From: a virus
Direction: 5' to 3' (one strand)
IMG/VR virus record: IMGVR_UViG_3300035211_000070
Span: 1 to 48,879 of that record
Length of the DNA stretch: 48,879 nt
The notes below the pieces were generated by a model. It saw nothing but the letters and a program-made list of their open reading frames with translations, did not search any database and was not told where the DNA came from. Below, piece by piece: positions 6,972 through 47,100 of the stretch; positions within the stretch are counted from its first letter, which is position 1, and every line of letters begins with the position of its first letter. The position numbers and the translations under genes are program-made.

Positions 6972-8222
6972 ATGGCTGACGCAATCGGATCAATCAACTT
7001 TCTAAAGCTCTGGACCCAGTCCGATTATGACTACAAGCTGAAAAAGTATGTGGAAATGGGATTGGACAGGAGAATCATTGAAAGTTCCGGGGTGCTGAAA
7101 AAACTTGAGATCGGTAGACCAACGAGTCATCCCGAGGTGCAGTGGTACGAACAAGAGAGTTACGCGCATGCCGTGACGGCGACGTTGGCGTCTACCACCA
7201 TGACATTTTCAGGAACATTGATGGGGACATCGCTTGCCAGTGTTACTACTGCCGGCACCCAACAGTTAAAAAACATCATTCGAGTAGGGACCATTCTTGA
7301 AAGGCCAAGCGACGGCGTTCAGGCCAAGGTGACGGACATTACGAACCTAAGCGGCGCCGGCACGTATAACGTCACGGTGGTCGCTTACGGTAACACCTCG
7401 TTATCGAATGATACCTCCGCTGTTAGCTGGGAAATCCTTACCGAGCCGTGGAAAGACGCTACGGACATGAACCAGCCACGGGCCTTGGATAGAGAACGGC
7501 GAAAAGTGGGGACCGAGATATTCGCCGAAGGTTTTGAAATCGAGAAGACCAGAGAAAATACGTCGATGGAAGTTGTTGGTGATGAGATTAAGCACCAAAC
7601 GATGGAGCTCATCGACAAACTGAACATACAGCTTAGTCGAGCTGTCATTAGGCAGCGGCCGTACTATAGCTCCGGCTTTAAATACGGTCTTTCGACTCAA
7701 GACCCTACGTTGTGTGGTCTGTCAATCTGGCCGGAGATTGTCCAGGCGGAGGCGTCAAATCCAGCCGTGTATGTCAATTTAAGCTCCGCAAACTTGACCA
7801 AGAACAATCTTGACACACTCGTCAAAAACATGTGGCTGACCGAAAACGCCGACTTCGACACCGGTAATTGGTCTATAGTGTGTCATCCGAACACGTACCA
7901 ATATATGCAAAACTTTGATATCGCATATATGAGGGAAACCCAGGATTCAAAGAAGATCGGAATTTCAAAGACTATTTTCCATTCCAAGATCGGTAAGGAC
8001 TTTCCGATTATCTCTGATCGGCATATGCGAGAATCCGAATTGTTAGTGGTGAACTTCACCAAGTGCAAATACGGCTACTACAAAAACGACCGACTGGACA
8101 TCAAGGAACTGCCGACCAAGGGCCGTTATCGACAATGGCTCATATCCTTCCAGGCGTATGGAGTTGTAGCCCGTAATCCGAGAGCGAACATCGGTAAAAT
8201 TTACGGCATCAGCAACACATAA
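6972..8222 (+). CDS. Major capsid protein (HK97 fold, SU10/DUF5309-like)
   Basis: This 416-residue protein follows the scaffold gene behind a strong site (GGGAGGG). It resembles the SU10-type/DUF5309 major capsid proteins. The N-terminal helix region is followed by a beta-rich insertion (about 70-150, Thr/Gly/Ala-rich). A long spine-helix segment (RRKVGTEIFAEGFEIEKT and following) comes next, then a C-terminal axial domain ending in a short VVARNPRANIG motif. It would form the icosahedral shell. The assignment rests on pattern and gene order. Confidence 0.85.
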   Translation: MADAIGSINFLKLWTQSDYDYKLKKYVEMGLDRRIIESSGVLKKLEIGRPTSHPEVQWYEQESYAHAVTATLASTTMTFSGTLMGTSLASVTTAGTQQLKNIIRVGTILERPSDGVQAKVTDITNLSGAGTYNVTVVAYGNTSLSNDTSAVSWEILTEPWKDATDMNQPRALDRERRKVGTEIFAEGFEIEKTRENTSMEVVGDEIKHQTMELIDKLNIQLSRAVIRQRPYYSSGFKYGLSTQDPTLCGLSIWPEIVQAEASNPAVYVNLSSANLTKNNLDTLVKNMWLTENADFDTGNWSIVCHPNTYQYMQNFDIAYMRETQDSKKIGISKTIFHSKIGKDFPIISDRHMRESELLVVNFTKCKYGYYKNDRLDIKELPTKGRYRQWLISFQAYGVVARNPRANIGKIYGISNT

Positions 8223-31581: not shown

Positions 31582-31962
31582 TTACCTCCTCGCTTTGTTT
31601 TGGGCCCACAGGTCGTGAGCGATTTTAATGGCATGCTCCCTATCGGTTGCCCAGCATTGCGCCCCCCATCTCGACTGTGCTTTCCCGAAACGAGATCTTA
31701 CGTATTCTATCTCGGCTGGACGAGGGAACCGGTCAGAGATGGCGCTATCCACGTCTAAAATATTCCCGTCATCATCAAGGAACACTTTCCAGAACAGCTT
31801 GTTTTCGGTTGCTGGACCTGGGAAGTCCAGACCCCACTCTTCAATATAGCCCCCTAAGCAACAATGGTCCCTGAATCGTTCTGCATTTTTCTTTGTGGAG
31901 AATACTCCGTATATTGAATAATCAGAGTAATCCCCGTCAGTCACAATGTAGATGGTTGCCAT
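31582..31962 (-). CDS. Phage protein of the Y-x-V-T-x-G-x-Y-S-D-Y type
   Basis: This 126-residue protein uses the ATG at 31962, which overlaps the TAA of the upstream gene (TAATG). It contains TDGDYSDYSIYGVFSTKKNA near the N-terminus, a pattern I know from many unrelated phage genomes where the function is unknown. The conserved Asp/Ser/Tyr core may form a small catalytic or binding domain. It is part of the leftward accessory operon. Confidence 0.7.
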   Translation of the reverse strand: MATIYIVTDGDYSDYSIYGVFSTKKNAERFRDHCCLGGYIEEWGLDFPGPATENKLFWKVFLDDDGNILDVDSAISDRFPRPAEIEYVRSRFGKAQSRWGAQCWATDREHAIKIAHDLWAQNKARR

Positions 31963-32738
31963 TATAATGTCCCTTCCCACACTATTTCTGCCTTTGGGCC
32001 AGCATGGAGCCTCCACATTTTACCATCGTATGATGGGACAAGACCTGCTTCCCATAGCGTGGCTGCACACAGGAACGGGTTCTCAGTGACCCTTTTTGAG
32101 CCTAATTTCCATTGTTTCAGCTCAAAAAAACTGCCTATATATGCCCCAACGCTGGCCCTAACGCTGTACCAAACGCTGGCCCTAACGCTGTCCCAAACGC
32201 TGTCCCAAACGCTGTCCCAAAGGCTGTCCCAAACGCTGTCCCAAAGGCTGTCCCAAAGGCTGGCCCCAACGCTGGCCCTAACGCTGGCCCTAACGCTGGC
32301 CCCAACGCTGTCCCAAAGGCTGGCCCCAACGTTGGCCCCAACGCTGTCCCCAACGCTGGCCCACTCCCTTAAAAGCGCCAGTTCTTCAACTGTAACCTCG
32401 CCGTGTCTCTCAACCTCAAATGGGTTAATGATCTGCTTTATTACCAGTTCTGGAATGATCGTCTTGAAATCTAATTTTAGCAGTTTTTCCCCCACTTGGG
32501 CAGAGTCGTCCTTTGTATTGATCTGGTCTATGGCAAACGTTTTGGACAGTGGATTGAACTCGTATTTGTTCAGGGTGTCTTCTTTGCTACCACCGAATCC
32601 GAAATAGTCTGCAATGCTGGAATGGCTATCCGGTTCGTAGTTTTTAGGGTTGTTTACTCTCAGTGCTGCCCGATGTTTTGCGTCGAAATAAAGCAGCTTA
32701 CCTCTGCCGTTAGAACAGCAGGAAAAAAATGTGCACAT
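31962..32738 (-). CDS. Phage protein with tetrapeptide W-D-S-V/R-A-S-V repeat domain
   Basis: This is a 258-residue protein. I chose ATG 32738 with AAAGGAG upstream over an earlier start at 32837 that would overlap the neighbour. Residues 1-120 ([34 protein letters not shown]) match a known type of phage protein of unknown function. Residues about 125-200 consist of some 18 four-residue repeats ([16 protein letters not shown]), encoded by 12-bp DNA repeats. A C-terminal domain follows (about 205-258). Repeat arrays like this form solenoids that often bind DNA or proteins, sometimes mimicking DNA. Copy number likely varies by slippage. Confidence 0.7.
32147..32362. repeat. 12-bp tandem repeat array (about 18 units)
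   Basis: Units of AACGCTGTCCCA and variants (ACG/AGG, GTCCCA/GGCCCT/GGCCCC) repeat about 18 times without interruption, each encoding four residues on the minus strand. The array leaves several other frames open on both strands, which is a by-product of the repeat period. Likely length-variable by slippage or recombination. Confidence 0.85.
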
Positions 32739-32757
32739 AGTCTCTTTACTCCTTTCT

Positions 32758-32773
32758 GGGGCCTGGCGGCCCC
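32758..32773 (-). promoter_or_regulatory. GC-rich hairpin upstream of the repeat-protein gene
   Basis: Perfect stem GGGGCC-tggc-GGCCCC (plus-strand reading) lies just after the gene ending at 32782 and about 20 nt before ATG 32738, next to the AAAGGAG site. There is no T-run, so it is not a typical intrinsic terminator. It may serve RNA stability or processing between the two genes. Confidence 0.45.
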
Positions 32774-32781
32774 GTGGTGTG

Positions 32782-33042
32782 TTATAACGGATAAGTATCA
32801 CCAGTAGGCGCAAACCACTTGCCATGCTCACGGGCAAACTCTACTTTATCAATGAGTTCATCCCAATTGCCAACCACCACCTCAACGTCCATGGTCCCGT
32901 ATTGAGTCGGCACTAAAAAATAGACAAGCTCAACCATCCCCCGCCACCTGTTGTTTCCCAGGAACTGTTCAAGCTCTTCAAATGTCTCAAACGATTTTTC
33001 TGCTGTGTCGCTTGCCTGTGCTGTCAATTTGTACCGCTGCAT
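32782..33042 (-). CDS. Small hypothetical protein
   Basis: This is an 86-residue protein with ATG 33042 preceded by GAGG. It has an alternating strand/helix pattern, with two clear helices (TFEELEQFLGNN and WDELIDKVEFAREHG). No recognised family. Part of the accessory operon between the HTH-SWIM gene and the repeat-protein gene. Confidence 0.55.
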   Translation of the reverse strand: MQRYKLTAQASDTAEKSFETFEELEQFLGNNRWRGMVELVYFLVPTQYGTMDVEVVVGNWDELIDKVEFAREHGKWFAPTGDTYPL

Positions 33043-38419: not shown

Positions 38420-38627
38420 TTTTTTCGTCCTCGTAAATCTCTATGGTTGTATCGCCACTTAGGGTAATGCTTTTACAGTGTATCGCTATCCCCTCGTGGC
38501 TGGGTGACACCTGGACATCGGTTATTTTTACCAGGTGGGGGCCGTTTGGGTCTTGGACCACAAATGTCTCCCCTATTTCGGGAAGCTTTGCTGGTGTGAA
38601 CTGTTTAAACTCTTGTTGATTAGCCAT
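38412..38627 (-). CDS. Small hypothetical beta-rich protein
   Basis: This is a 71-residue protein with mostly short beta strands (GETFVVQDPNG, LVKITDVQVS, GIAIHCKSITLSG). It overlaps both neighbours by 8 nt. Both overlaps have the same structure, in which D-E-x-N-G at the end of one gene contains the start of the next. No recognised family; an OB-like or SH3-like fold is possible. Confidence 0.55.
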   Translation of the reverse strand: MANQQEFKQFTPAKLPEIGETFVVQDPNGPHLVKITDVQVSPSHEGIAIHCKSITLSGDTTIEIYEDEKNG

Positions 38628-39051
38628 TCTCTTCGTCCTTGGCCTTCTCAAAGTAGATGTCTAACGCTTTCAAATAGAGCTTACAAAGGTTGCGCGATGT
38701 CCTGTGCCAAAAAGAAGCGTCGGTGATTAGATAATCGTCGAGTTGTTTAACCATCGCTTTCAATTCTTTCCTGACTTCGTTTTCAGCTTTTAGTAGGTCC
38801 GGTTTGGTCATTGATAGCTCCTCGTTGTAGAGTGGTGATTGTTGGGCCTTGTTTTTCATAATAGTAAACTTTTCTAACTGCCCCACAAGTAGGCCTTGAT
38901 CTTCGGACTTGTAAATGTCATTGATGATGTGAACAGCCAAACCATACAGCTTCATGAAGTCTTGTTGGGCTTTCTGTAGCACTATAAATTTTGGGAATCC
39001 CGCTTTTTTTGACTTCTCCAAAAATAGGCGATATAGGTCCAATACATCCAT
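38620..39051 (-). CDS. QKDFMKLY-family protein 3
   Basis: This is a 143-residue helical protein with ATG 39051 behind GAGG. It carries QQDFMKLYGLAVH and NKAQQSPLYNEE, the motif pair shared with the two smaller proteins nearby. It has additional N- and C-terminal helices. It is encoded immediately after the replication initiator gene. Confidence 0.6.
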   Translation of the reverse strand: MDVLDLYRLFLEKSKKAGFPKFIVLQKAQQDFMKLYGLAVHIINDIYKSEDQGLLVGQLEKFTIMKNKAQQSPLYNEELSMTKPDLLKAENEVRKELKAMVKQLDDYLITDASFWHRTSRNLCKLYLKALDIYFEKAKDEENG

Positions 39052-39059
39052 GTTCCACC

Positions 39060-40121
39060 TCACTCATAGATACGCTTGTAAGCGTCTGTTTCGGAGATCT
39101 TGAGTTGTATATCATAGCCAAGATCCGATGGCTTTAGTGTTGGGTTGTCTTTCTTCAGTAGGTCTTTTGCATAGTCTGTTAACGCTCTCCGTTCGTGCTC
39201 ATCAAGATTAGCTATCAGGTCCCGTGTGCGGTTGTATTCGGCTTTCTCTTGTTCGGCTTGTCGGTCTTCTGGGGATGGACCCGGTGATGGTTTGTCTACG
39301 AGATATGGGTTGGGCCGCTCCCCGTGGAACCTGATGTCGTTTCTGCAATAAGTGTGGAGGGTCAGGGGGATTGAATAATAATCTTTGCTCGAGACATGTG
39401 TCTTTGCGGCCTCATCGAGAGTTGCGTGCATGATAAGCAGGCCTAAAATGTCCTCAACATAGACGCCCTTTGGTCCGTATGTTTCTCGATAGGGTTGGAG
39501 GTCGATCGCTTTGGCGTCCAAGATAAATTTATCTGGATCACGGTACGGAGATTTTTTGGTTTTTGTTTTTTTCGTGTTCTTATTCTTTTCTTTTCTTATA
39601 TATTCGGGTGACATTTTTGTCACCCCTGACATGGGTGTCACATGTTTGCTACTTTGGCCTCTCTGGCATTGGACAAGAGGAACCACATTTTCGGGGTAGG
39701 TGACATTTTTGTCACTAGTGACATGTACGTCACATGTGACATGGGTGTCACCATTATTGGGACTATCAAGTCTGAGATTGACTCTATGGTGATTGTAGTA
39801 TGTGACATCAGTGTCACCATTATTGAAATGGGCTAGTGTGGATGCTGCTATAATGGTCTTTGTTTTTTCGTTCTTTTTTGTGAACCTTCTGATGTATTTT
39901 TTATTGTTCAAAGAGTTCAAAATCCTAATGGTCTGGCGAAGGGACATGCCAAGTAGATTCGACAACTTAACCGTCCCAATCCACACCACACCCTTTTTAA
40001 GGTATGTGTCCTTGTCCGGGAGGTCAAACGAGAGCAAGATAAAAAGACAACGAAACTCCGCCGGAGACAGGTTGTCGTCAGCTACCAGGGAAAGCGGTAT
40101 GTAACAGAAGAGGTTTGTCAT
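39060..40121 (-). CDS. Replication initiator protein (winged-helix, lambda O-like in layout)
   Basis: This 353-residue protein starts at ATG 40121 behind AAGGGA; a 5'-extended start at 40193 would overlap the neighbour by 59 nt. Residues about 8-95 form a winged HTH as in phage replication initiators (SLVADDNLSPAEFRCLFILL, IGTVKLSNLLGMSLRQTIRI). Residues about 98-185 contain repeated H-V-T / D-V-T groups encoded by a run of palindromes. The rest is helical, with a SPYRDPDKF start. As in lambda, the origin would lie within the initiator gene, so the protein binds its own gene. Confidence 0.7.
   Translation of the reverse strand: MTNLFCYIPLSLVADDNLSPAEFRCLFILLSFDLPDKDTYLKKGVVWIGTVKLSNLLGMSLRQTIRILNSLNNKKYIRRFTKKNEKTKTIIAASTLAHFNNGDTDVTYYNHHRVNLRLDSPNNGDTHVTCDVHVTSDKNVTYPENVVPLVQCQRGQSSKHVTPMSGVTKMSPEYIRKEKNKNTKKTKTKKSPYRDPDKFILDAKAIDLQPYRETYGPKGVYVEDILGLLIMHATLDEAAKTHVSSKDYYSIPLTLHTYCRNDIRFHGERPNPYLVDKPSPGPSPEDRQAEQEKAEYNRTRDLIANLDEHERRALTDYAKDLLKKDNPTLKPSDLGYDIQLKISETDAYKRIYE
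39606..39817. other. Replication origin candidate: six GTGACA-N4-TGTCAC iterons
   Basis: Six palindromes lie at 39606-39625 (8-bp arms), 39627-39640, 39700-39715, 39718-39733 (one mismatch), 39736-39751 and 39802-39817. Neighbouring centres are 18 bp apart in two clusters (two, then three copies), and the outlier is 66 bp further. 18 bp equals six codons and explains the six-residue T-H-V-T periodicity of the encoded protein. Repeated palindromic binding sites within an initiator gene are the signature of phage origins such as lambda ori. Confidence 0.75.
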
Positions 40122-40134
40122 ATGGTCCCTTGGA

Positions 40135-40863
40135 TTAACTAGCTGTTGTCCTTCCCGTAAGGCGGTCATGGTCTCGTTTTTCGAGCCTGGCAATCCTCTC
40201 TGCTAAATCATGATGGCTGTGGGGCATTACGTTAAAGCATGACGCCCTGTCGGTAAGCGCCTCTAACTCTTCTGCTCTGTCGTTGTGAGCCCTCATCAAT
40301 AAGGCAACCGTTTCATCAAGATGAATGAGCCTTGCCTGTATCTCCTCAGTTAGGACCCTCTTTTTATGCTCTTCCTCTTCTAGCTTCACCTGGATGGCCG
40401 ATTTTGGCGACTCGCCCCAATTATTAAACTGCTCTTTCATTTGATTGATCTCTTCCCTGAAAACTCCCTGCACTTTGAGGGCCGCCTTGACATCATACTC
40501 AAGGTCACGAATTCTGGCCACGATTGAATGTATCCGTGTTGAGCTCGGAATGTCCGCCCATGCTTCCGAAGCGGTTGTGGGGCCGGTAGTTTTTGGCGGC
40601 TCGACTTCCTCCACTTTTTCAGGGGATTTTGAGTTATAGATGGTTTTCCATAAATGGTCGTGATAAACGGTTGTGGGGCCGGCCGTTTTGGGTGTCTCAG
40701 CCATAATAATCTTCTTGCTCAGTATGTCCAAAAATAACTCAATATTCTTGGTAGTTTGCCAGTTTATATGGCCTTCCGTCATATTAAACCACTCTCTCAA
40801 GTGTGAGAGTAGCTCTTTCGCCTTCCCCACATCCGTCACCTTGATCTCAATTCCTTGGATCAT
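40135..40863 (-). CDS. Coiled-coil protein with repeated PKTxGPTT motif
   Basis: This 242-residue helical protein has ATG 40863 behind GGGGTG. It contains PKTAGPTTVYHD and PKTTGPTTASEA (about residues 57-101) and long coiled-coil heptads (about 110-230, Gln/Glu/Lys-rich). Placed directly upstream of the replication initiator; it could be a loader or structural partner, but no motif supports this. Confidence 0.55.
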   Translation of the reverse strand: MIQGIEIKVTDVGKAKELLSHLREWFNMTEGHINWQTTKNIELFLDILSKKIIMAETPKTAGPTTVYHDHLWKTIYNSKSPEKVEEVEPPKTTGPTTASEAWADIPSSTRIHSIVARIRDLEYDVKAALKVQGVFREEINQMKEQFNNWGESPKSAIQVKLEEEEHKKRVLTEEIQARLIHLDETVALLMRAHNDRAEELEALTDRASCFNVMPHSHHDLAERIARLEKRDHDRLTGRTTAS

Positions 40864-42421: not shown

Positions 42422-42621
42422 TGCCTCACCCACCCTTCAAAATATTCATACCCTGCGGCCTTGCTGAGCCTATTCAACCAAACATGGTTGTATTTAAAAC
42501 CCGACTCTTCACAGAACCGCCGCAATTGACGAATAGTGAACGTGTCACGGGACCGTATCCAGTCAAGGATTCGTTTCTGGTTTTCTTCACTAATCATAGG
42601 TTGTGGTCCTCGTTTAGCCAT
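42418..42621 (-). CDS. Small winged-HTH-like protein
   Basis: This is a 67-residue protein with ATG 42621 behind AAGGAGG. Its core (about 15-55, DWIRSRDTFTIRQLRRFCEE followed by NHVWLNRLSKAAGY) reads like a compact winged helix or homeodomain-like HTH. It is a plausible regulator of the arm. It overlaps the deoxyribosyltransferase-like gene by 8 nt. Confidence 0.6.
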   Translation of the reverse strand: MAKRGPQPMISEENQKRILDWIRSRDTFTIRQLRRFCEESGFKYNHVWLNRLSKAAGYEYFEGWVRQ

Positions 42622-43066
42622 GTTTCCTCCTTTCTGTTCTCGTCTTGTCACGCTTTATCAGAAAGTTTGCTATTTCCGAGTTTGTACAACCCTTCTCCGC
42701 CGCCTTTCGTTTGCAGTAAGCATCCCACAACGCAATCTCCTTAATGCTGTAAAAAATCGGAATCTGCGATTTATTGGCAATCGCCACCTCTTTCCGTGTT
42801 CCTTTTGATTTCTCCCACCCCTCAAGCAAAAGTACAGCATCGGCTTTCACTAGCCATGCCATGCTGTTTTCTTGATATATCTTCACATCAAGAAGCCCTC
42901 TGCTGATTACACTCAAAGAGTCTAGCCACGGGCAATACGGAGCAAGGCCCAGCTTCAAAAGCTCATGAAAAGCATCAACTCCTTTGTGAATGTTCTCTAG
43001 TACATCAAAAGGCCTCTCCGCCGACGAATAAGGCCCAGCTATGAAAACTCTCTTTCTAATCTTCAT
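42614..43066 (-). CDS. Nucleoside 2-deoxyribosyltransferase-like protein
   Basis: This 150-residue protein begins with RVFIAGPYSSAERP (residues 6-19) and contains ADAVLLLEGWEKSKGTRKEV (about 75-95). These are the hallmark pair of the nucleoside 2-deoxyribosyltransferase/DUF4406 group (IAGPYS and D-A-V...G-T-x-x-E). Such proteins exchange nucleobases on deoxyribose or hydrolyse nucleotides, providing or altering DNA precursors. The catalytic Glu is probably the one in the RKEV segment. Might also act in a nucleotide-based defence or counter-defence. Confidence 0.75.
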   Translation of the reverse strand: MKIRKRVFIAGPYSSAERPFDVLENIHKGVDAFHELLKLGLAPYCPWLDSLSVISRGLLDVKIYQENSMAWLVKADAVLLLEGWEKSKGTRKEVAIANKSQIPIFYSIKEIALWDAYCKRKAAEKGCTNSEIANFLIKRDKTRTERRKHG

Positions 43067-44409: not shown

Positions 44410-46322
44410 CAGAACCCCCCACTTTTAGCCCGCGGCAGAAGCCGTGGGTTTTTGAGAAGACTATCCAGACAAGGCCATGCCATAGCTGCACTCATGACCT
44501 CATCGTCGTGGCATCGCCGTGTTAACGGGTCGGGGAATTGTTGCACATAGTCATTCTTTTCAGGGTCCCAATAAAAACCCTCATGCTCGTCATATGTCCT
44601 GCCCGAATGAAAAATTATCCGCTCTTCCATGATATACTTTTGTTGGTCATGAAGTATTTGGCTTTTTGACTTACGGTTAGTGTTCCACCCAATACGCTCA
44701 GTTTCTTCCTTGTCCTTTTCTATTTGCTTCGTCTCATAGTAGAGATAAGGATACCCGCCCCATGTCGCCTCCATTTGGCTGATGCCGTCCTGCAATCCAC
44801 GGGTGGTTGATTGGCCGGGGTTGTTCCGTTCAACAAGGATAAGCGCCCAGTTGTACCATTGCCCCATCATGAAGCAATGGATAGCGGCGTCCAGAGGATT
44901 TACGTGATTATTGTAATAGTGAGCGACCTGTTTGAGGATGATGTGAGATGCGAATTTTACGACACGCCACACATGGATGACCGAGAAGTTAGCGCCGACT
45001 CCTTCGCCAACGTCCATGCTGATTAGGTAGTCTTCGTCGTAATCCGGCTCCTCATAGACTTCAATGTAGAAATATTTACCCGGCAAGTCTTCACGCAGTA
45101 GCTTGGTGGGTAGGACGGGGCAGCCAGGGTAGAGCCGTGATGTTAATCTGCGTGATGTGCAATTCGGGCATGCTTTAGGCCTTTCTGCTTCTTTAAAAAA
45201 ACCAGACCAACCGCAGCCTTCATCCAAGTATCCCTTTTTAATATCAAAAGCACTTGCGCACTCCACCTGCTGTGCAAATTCCAGGCTGACTAAATATTCG
45301 GGGGCTCGCTCGTGCGTGCGGCGCAACTTCTTTAACGTCTCTAAGTTGAACCACGCAGACCCCTCCTGCATAAAAGCGACTTCTATTGATATCGGAAATT
45401 CTTGGTTCAACGATGCAAAGTTTCCGTTATACTCATCAAGCTTGGCCTGTATCCACTTCATTTGCTCTGGCGTAAGTAGGTCCTTGTGTTTGTTGTAGTA
45501 GCGCTGTTCAGATTCGTTGAGCGCTAACTTTTCACCAGGCGCAAACGGAATAAAATAATTAGGAAACTCATGCTTTACGTCTGGGAATGACAGGAATATC
45601 GGTGTGAGATTGTTCTTCCCGGCTTCGGCTTGCCTCCACAGCCCCTTAAACTCCGTGCCTTGGCCCATCTTTGGGGGAGTGGATTCCCATATTTTCAGAT
45701 TGCCGGGTAAAGGATGCACAGCGGCATCTACGCCTTGGCGGTTGTCTACCAGATATGGGTAAAAGGCTGCTTCAGATCCGTGATAATATTGTAATGTGTC
45801 TCCTCGTCCAGTGTCTTTGTCTTTGGCTGTTTGTAGGTATAGGTAGCTATCATGAGGCGTCTGGAAGACCAGTTCCGCCGCTTTAGGATTAGGTGTGGTA
45901 AGGGGCCGTGACCGCCTATAGCTATCTGGCAGGTTTTTGTAAAAGATCTTACATATCTCGTACAGTCTCTTTGTTAAAATATCCTTGTTCGCCGTTATAA
46001 GCGCACGACGATTCGAATGCATAAACAGAAGGGCGGTAATAACACCGTCAATTAACGTTGAACAACCCAGCTGACGTATCTTCATAATTATGAAAAACAT
46101 CGGGCGATTATTCAGGTAATCATCCAAGATATGATGCCATATGATCTCTTGGGCGGGGTTCATGATGAGGCTGGTCTTCTTGCCGTCAGCCTGGATAATA
46201 AAGAACTTGTTTTCGATCAGGTCTTGGAAATCAAACTCCTCCTCCGGATCTCCTTGGAAGAACAACTCACGTTCATATGAGCGCACCTGCTCGATCACAT
46301 CATTTGGGTTGATTTTTGGCAC
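44409..46322 (-). CDS. Terminase large subunit (packaging motor)
   Basis: This is about 637 residues from GTG 46322 with AGAGGT upstream; an ATG at 46388 (659 residues) lacks a site and overlaps the neighbour by 89 nt. It cleaves concatemers and pumps DNA into the procapsid. The N-terminal ATPase half carries a Walker-A-like MKIRQLGCSTLI, a SEAAF acidic segment of Walker-B type, and a coupling motif WESTPP. The C-terminal half has the RNase-H-fold nuclease acidics: D in LISMDVGEG, E in LILVERNN, and D in RRCHDDEVMSAA. A Cys-rich insertion (CGWSGFF...CPNC) lies between the halves. It is encoded in the leftward arm away from the portal gene. Confidence 0.85.
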   Translation of the reverse strand: MPKINPNDVIEQVRSYERELFFQGDPEEEFDFQDLIENKFFIIQADGKKTSLIMNPAQEIIWHHILDDYLNNRPMFFIIMKIRQLGCSTLIDGVITALLFMHSNRRALITANKDILTKRLYEICKIFYKNLPDSYRRSRPLTTPNPKAAELVFQTPHDSYLYLQTAKDKDTGRGDTLQYYHGSEAAFYPYLVDNRQGVDAAVHPLPGNLKIWESTPPKMGQGTEFKGLWRQAEAGKNNLTPIFLSFPDVKHEFPNYFIPFAPGEKLALNESEQRYYNKHKDLLTPEQMKWIQAKLDEYNGNFASLNQEFPISIEVAFMQEGSAWFNLETLKKLRRTHERAPEYLVSLEFAQQVECASAFDIKKGYLDEGCGWSGFFKEAERPKACPNCTSRRLTSRLYPGCPVLPTKLLREDLPGKYFYIEVYEEPDYDEDYLISMDVGEGVGANFSVIHVWRVVKFASHIILKQVAHYYNNHVNPLDAAIHCFMMGQWYNWALILVERNNPGQSTTRGLQDGISQMEATWGGYPYLYYETKQIEKDKEETERIGWNTNRKSKSQILHDQQKYIMEERIIFHSGRTYDEHEGFYWDPEKNDYVQQFPDPLTRRCHDDEVMSAAMAWPCLDSLLKNPRLLPRAKSGGF

Positions 46323-47100
46323 GCTTACCTCTGTACCATCTAGCTTTGTGCTTGTACCAGTCTTCCAAAAACGCTTCTGGTGTGTCATAGGCTAGGTCAC
46401 GGCCTTCAGACTGTTTTTTGTAGAACCACTTTTTGACACTGTTTTCAAAGGCCCTGTAAATCCCTGGCCATTTCTTTTTAGATATCTCATGGACATGTGG
46501 TGACTTAAACGGACAACACACGCACCCAAGACGGTCAAACCCCTCATCATAGAGCGAACAGTAAGTTAAGTTCCTCCATTCTATATATTCCCACACGTCT
46601 AGTTCGGTCCATTTTAGAATGGGGTAAAGATAGGTTTGATGTTTCTTCCAACTGTCAACCCTGGAATAGTTTCTTCTTCGCTTACTTTCTTCGGCCCTAA
46701 TCCCAAGAATGAGCGGATAAAACTGTTTGGATTCTGGAGAGGAATCATGTTTCAAAACTGCGCAACACCATCTAGCCGTAGGTAGTGGTGGGGCATATTG
46801 AACGATCTTTTTAAAAAACTTATGCTTTGGATAAAAAAACCTCACCTCTGGATGATGGGCCCTGATAAAACGCACAATTTCAGGTGGGTCTATTTGGGTG
46901 GCGTGGTAGAAAGCTGTAAAGTCTAGTCCTGTCCTCTTCATGAGTTCCATAATCACCACGGAGTCTTTGCCGCCAGAAAACCCAAGGCCTATGTTTGAGG
47001 AGGCTGAACATTTTTGGACTATAAAGCTAATCGCCTCTTCTTCTAAAGATTGTATAGATAGTTGTTTGAACAACCGTTGTTGATTATTTTTTGGCGGCAT
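46300..47100 (-). CDS. PAPS-reductase-like / DndC-like sulfur-transfer-type protein
   Basis: This is a 266-residue protein of the adenine-nucleotide alpha-hydrolase fold. It has the ATP-binding SGGKDS motif (residues 42-47) and a WCC pair at 111-113. A GCVCCPF cluster at 192-198 shows the four or five cysteines typical of iron-sulfur versions related to PAPS reductases and DndC. Such proteins may help DNA sulfur modification, reduction of sulfate or tRNA thiolation. It lies between a possible small and the large terminase and overlaps both, so its role may be tied to packaging or DNA modification. No other modification genes were found. Confidence 0.75.
   Translation of the reverse strand: MPPKNNQQRLFKQLSIQSLEEEAISFIVQKCSASSNIGLGFSGGKDSVVIMELMKRTGLDFTAFYHATQIDPPEIVRFIRAHHPEVRFFYPKHKFFKKIVQYAPPLPTARWCCAVLKHDSSPESKQFYPLILGIRAEESKRRRNYSRVDSWKKHQTYLYPILKWTELDVWEYIEWRNLTYCSLYDEGFDRLGCVCCPFKSPHVHEISKKKWPGIYRAFENSVKKWFYKKQSEGRDLAYDTPEAFLEDWYKHKARWYRGKRAKNQPK

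Follow-up and report, generated by a model that had tools for sequence, protein, structure and literature searches.

A likely lambda-type replication origin formed by six GTGAC dyads inside a phage initiator gene

Introduction

Six copies of a palindrome lie within the coding sequence of a gene resembling those of phage replication initiators, which raises the question of whether this array is the replication origin of the virus that carries it. The stretch of DNA analysed in full, here called the window, comprises 48,879 bases and is a virus record without stated completeness. The array was examined for what selection maintains it, for the DNA and protein domain on either side of it, and for its recurrence in other phages. 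Coordinates of all features are given in Table 1.

Table 1. Features of the initiator gene and the dyad array in the window
Feature	Position	Strand	Details
Replication initiator gene	39060..40193	-	377 aa from TTG; phrog_270, E=1.3e-8
N-terminal winged-helix DNA-binding domain	39831..40094	-	residues 34-121; AlphaFold2 and fold matches
Recognition-helix core SLRQTIR	39924..39944	-	residues 84-90; Arg-x-x-x-Arg
Dyad 1, GTGACATCAGTGTCAC	39802..39817	.	codon phase 1
Dyad 2, GTGACATGGGTGTCAC	39736..39751	.	codon phase 1
Dyad 3, GTGACATGTACGTCAC	39718..39733	.	5-bp arms; codon phase 1
Dyad 4, GTGACATTTTTGTCAC	39700..39715	.	codon phase 1
Dyad 5, CTGACATGGGTGTCAC	39626..39641	.	one mismatch, C for G, at the left end; codon phase 0
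Dyad 6, GGGTGACATTTTTGTCACCC	39606..39625	.	8-bp arms (39608-39623 extended); codon phase 0; nearest the AT-rich tract
AT-rich candidate unwinding element	39549..39603	.	encodes the lysine-rich linker YIRKEKNKNTKKTKTKKS; least stable 55 bp by nearest-neighbour energy

Results

The initiator gene and its neighbours

Comparison of the encoded protein with PHROG profiles gave a match to phrog_270 (replication initiation) spanning residues 6-216, further matches to phrog_428 (1.7e-5) and the DnaD-like phrog_186 (3.5e-5), and weak matches to the O-like phrog_678 (5.7e-5) and one other O-like profile (4.6e-4). Judged by these profiles the gene belongs to the phage replication initiators, and its original description as a winged-helix initiator-like protein is borne out by phrog_270 and phrog_678. 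No Pfam family was significant, HTH_36 reaching just E=0.17, and neither Phage_rep_O (PF04492) nor RepA_N (PF06970) matched at E<=1. The start codon is uncertain, since an ATG at either codon 9 or 25 could serve instead of the TTG.

A structure model of the initiator was built with the aid of 66 other dyad-bearing ORFs and gave AlphaFold2 block means mostly between 70 and 97 across residues 31-110. The model contains a confident winged helix at approximately residues 34-110, a disordered middle that corresponds to the part encoded by the dyads and the AT-rich tract, and C-terminal helices. A fold search with this model returned MarR/LexA-type winged helices as best matches, none at E<=0.001. 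In the helix aligned with SLRQTIR, arginine occupies position 7 in 54/55 and position 3 in 52/55 proteins, the window's own included.

Close relatives of the initiator were found neither in viral contigs nor in phages or plasmids, and those of the terminase were likewise absent from viral contigs, with phage matches below 60% identity (24-30% among the matches listed). The next gene downstream (38620-39063) had no helicase-loader match to Pfam or PHROG profiles, and no P or DnaC-like helicase loader was matched among the several neighbouring ORFs scanned. The early region also encodes a PAPS reductase (46300-47100, minus strand; phrog_424, 7e-37) and a nucleoside 2-deoxyribosyltransferase-like protein (42614-43066, minus strand; phrog_355, 2e-16). 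A minus-strand ORF at 31962-32837 contains a long run of SVGAS/WDSVWDS repeats, in a tract that also lacks stop codons in further frames of both strands.

The dyad array is constrained as DNA

Six GTGAC-N6-GTCAC dyads, one with a mismatch, were located at 39608-39817 on the ORF, confirming the predicted palindromic copies within the initiator gene, including those with 8-bp arms, 5-bp arms and a mismatch. The array follows directly on the winged-helix domain of its gene and lies approximately 370-590 bp into the coding region; across all 48.9 kb, TGAC-N6-GTCA occurs outside it just once, at 7810. An 18-bp distance between centres, predicted for two clusters, holds within them (39608/39626 and 39700/39718/39736), the sixth dyad (39802) being 66 bp beyond.

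Synonymous-codon shuffles of the initiator gene were taken as the proper null for the dyad count, and six or more dyads appeared in 0/20,000 shuffles (mean 0.49, maximum 4). A scan of the window allowing three mismatches found 21 dyads where 17.7 were expected and was discarded as uninformative.

The four phase-1 dyads encode DxxVT (DTDVT, DTHVT, DVHVT and DKNVT) and the two phase-0 dyads, at 39608 and 39626, encode VTxMS. Since one DNA word is read in two codon phases, selection keeps the word and not the protein: the dyads are constrained as DNA, and the protein tolerates the constraint. A periodic H-V-T peptide had been proposed, with protein and DNA each constraining the other. The peptide is found at the four phase-1 sites but not at the other two, and, as selection acts on the DNA word, it is a by-product covering part of the array; the mutual constraint likewise stands for the DNA, whereas the protein merely accommodates it.

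A comparison within a related family was made using two proteins with 74% identity (L085 and L339), the second of which had been found by its protein domain and not by its dyads. All 30 arm bases in three dyads were kept, against 75% identity elsewhere, and the N6 cores differed while the arms stayed. Conservation of the palindromes above that of the coding sequence, as originally anticipated, was thus seen in this related pair, not in the window's own lineage.

The array adjoins the least stable DNA of the window

The AT-rich tract adjoins the array on its 3' side, in the orientation of the gene. It is the least stable 55-bp stretch of the 48,879 bases (-61.0, against a mean of -77.3 with a standard deviation of 4.9) and holds the window's highest-AT 50-mer (80%). 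A turning point of GC skew expected near 39.7 kb was absent; the changes track gene orientation, near 4 kb and near 29 kb, and the rise seen at 38-40 kb is small and local. Skew is uninformative for such a genome.

GTGAC dyads in other viruses

At least 119 IMG/VR stretches contain GTGACN6GTCAC in tandem, compared with 1 for a control palindrome matched in composition. Host ORFs no shorter than 130 aa were obtained for 94 stretches among the IMG/VR matches listed, 66 of these ORFs being non-redundant. Their dyads fall 88 times in phase 0, 118 times in phase 1 and never in phase 2, which would place a TGA stop in frame; phases are mixed in 43/66, and the spacing distribution has maxima at 18 and 21-24 bp. 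When the window's initiator was added, 54 of the resulting 67 proteins matched phrog_270 and 51 matched HTH_36. The 40-bp stretch richest in AT is on the 3' side of the array in 49 genes and on the 5' side in 6 (P=6e-8, kinship ignored), and dyads followed by AT-rich DNA are the general order in such phage initiator genes. For a profile search of viral contigs, the winged-helix alignment offered no sufficiently conserved stretch.

GTGAC dyads in bacterial genomes and alternative readings of the array

Winged-helix ORFs with GTGAC arrays occur in genomes of Actinomycetota, Pseudomonadota, Fusobacteriota, Campylobacterota, Omnitrophota, Verrucomicrobiota and Acidobacteriota. One such ORF lies on a Thermoplasmatales-binned contig (L225), from an archaeal virus or a misbinned phage.

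Further arrangements of the word were noted outside these ORFs. A goat-rumen Bacteroidaceae MAG, RGIG3537, carries tandem palindromes of the GTGAC-TTTAAA-GTCAC type on at least 19 contigs (JAFSWM01...), genome-wide and outside winged-helix ORFs (L131, L144, L147, L157, L163 and 14 further loci). Rhodobacteraceae genomes contain a 32-bp element of two abutting dyads, GTGACN6GTCACGTGACN6GTCAC, also outside winged-helix ORFs (L130, L137, L161, L173, L194, L197, L223, L234). In clostridial genomes (L138, L143, L150, L205) a TATAAT-like box separates two GTGACC-N4-GGTCAC dyads, a layout resembling a promoter with paired operators.

On genome contigs, 27/117 GTGAC stretches lie inside a winged-helix ORF and 90/117 outside, so the bare dyad pattern is unspecific for origins. 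This distribution, together with the genomic dyads that flank TATAAT-like boxes, favours a reading in which the dyads are operators through which the initiator or a separate repressor controls early-operon transcription, with no origin function. That reading is nevertheless unlikely for the window, whose array lies inside a coding region beside the least stable DNA and whose N6 core is unlike that of the operator-like sites; by winged-helix profile, moreover, viral arrays are mostly inside initiator ORFs (85 among the 119 stretches listed).

Extra iterons in plasmids act as negative control sites, as is textbook knowledge, and the array could by the same token be an initiator-bound copy-control, incompatibility or enhancer site, the strands opening elsewhere; the AT-rich tract beside the window's array, and the AT-rich DNA on the 3' side of the arrays of most relatives, make this very improbable. 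Selection on a repeated linker peptide (H-V-T or V-T-P), to which the GDxxVT and VTxxSP repeats of the relatives' consensus sequence would point, is ruled out by the mixed codon phase, in which one DNA word yields different peptides in the window gene and 43/66 others, and synonymous shuffles fail to reproduce the six dyads.

Other palindromes in homologous initiators

To obtain a sample blind to palindromes, 69 non-redundant phrog_270 homologues from Pseudomonadota and Actinomycetota were chosen solely on their profile matches. A palindrome in three or more copies was present in 25/69, against 2.5 expected, and in 1 of the neighbouring control genes, against 1.4 expected; 51% of the palindrome spacings in the homologues were 17-26 bp, against 12% under the null. 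In-gene palindromic iterons are, on this excess, common in the superfamily, though undetected in part of it. The GTGAC word itself occurred in just 1/69, and since other words stand in named relatives (TACCCC in Arthrobacter phages, GCATAG, CACAG and TGCCA in enterobacterial relatives, TCCCTC in lambda), it is one word among many.

Arg-x3-Arg in the recognition helix is shared by nearly all proteins of the GTGAC class and absent in the enterobacterial relatives with GCATAG, CACAG and TGCCA dyads. As a sufficient code for GTGAC it fails, the word being present in 1/11 Arg-x3-Arg proteins and 0/58 others of the unbiased set. A Fisher test gave P=2e-4 when four loci chosen for their palindromes, omitted from the preceding counts, were taken in; because this value depends on them, the link from helix to word is offered as a hypothesis only.

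Discussion

The proposed origin

The array is very likely a lambda-type replication origin inside the initiator gene, in a virus without close relatives found. The original prediction of an origin is supported by the initiator profiles, by the position of the array between the winged-helix domain and the least stable DNA, and by the recurrence of the same layout in many phage initiators. The six dyads are very probably docking sites of the virus's own initiator protein. The winged-helix domain would bind them within the gene that encodes it, each dyad probably taking up a dimer, and the bound initiator would assemble an O-some-like complex that strains and then opens the adjacent AT-rich tract, where a helicase of host or phage could be loaded. 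Binding, strand opening and helicase loading are modelled here on lambda O (PMC7466680) and on RepA_N plasmids (pSK41 Rep, PMC5703833).

Palindromic iterons as a wider property of phage initiators

Of greater interest than the window's origin itself is the enrichment of repeated palindromes across initiator genes: such dyads are approximately tenfold more frequent than coding accounts for (25 against 2.5 of 69) and often stand in more than one codon phase. No description of this enrichment was found in open-licence PMC text. We regard as evenly balanced the broader proposition that many phrog_270/HTH_36 phage initiators carry their origin as palindromic iterons in their own gene, the palindrome being lineage-specific and matched to the recognition helix, with GTGAC-N6-GTCAC a widely shared word in phages and prophages of at least seven bacterial phyla. 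If it is true, phage origins and their cognate specificity could be read from sequence alone wherever an initiator ORF contains repeated palindromes in mixed phases. Dyad enrichment offers a simple means, open to testing, of finding the origins of metagenomic phages, and the initiator-site pairs are a large natural set for learning how winged helices select the DNA word they bind.

Comparison with known origins

Bifidobacterium phage PMBT6 (MK932884) carries two exact GTGACACCCATGTCAC dyads and degenerate copies in a winged-helix gene, the product of which is annotated merely as 'HTH domain-containing protein' and is not closely related in sequence to the window's initiator. In the RepA_N plasmids pSK41 and pTZ2162, Rep boxes lie centrally in rep and are bound by the N-terminal domain, the ori-encoded middle of the protein being a linker (PMC5703833), and RepA_N iterons are semi-palindromic (PMC7145576); these initiators are, however, a different family from the window protein, which has no RepA_N Pfam match.

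The lambda ori has four annotated iterons, imperfect inverted repeats spaced at 20, 24 and 23 bp. Every iteron in lambda and lambdoid phages is an inverted repeat (PMC7466680), so the dyad form of the sites, originally regarded as distinctive, is not. The window differs from lambda in having six GTGAC dyads in place of four TCCCTC-N5-GAGGGA iterons, in lacking a Pfam Phage_rep_O match and in having no recognised lambda P-like gene beside the initiator. Six iterons within gene O are found in the Stx lambdoid phages P27 and 933W (PMC7466680), which share this number of in-gene iterons with the window, whereas their iteron sequence class is that of lambda and not GTGAC. In both lambda ori/O and the window, iterons in the form of inverted repeats, imperfect in lambda, lie in the middle of an initiator gene whose product has an N-terminal DNA-binding domain (PMC7466680), and in both the iterons come first, with AT-rich DNA 3' of them in gene direction.
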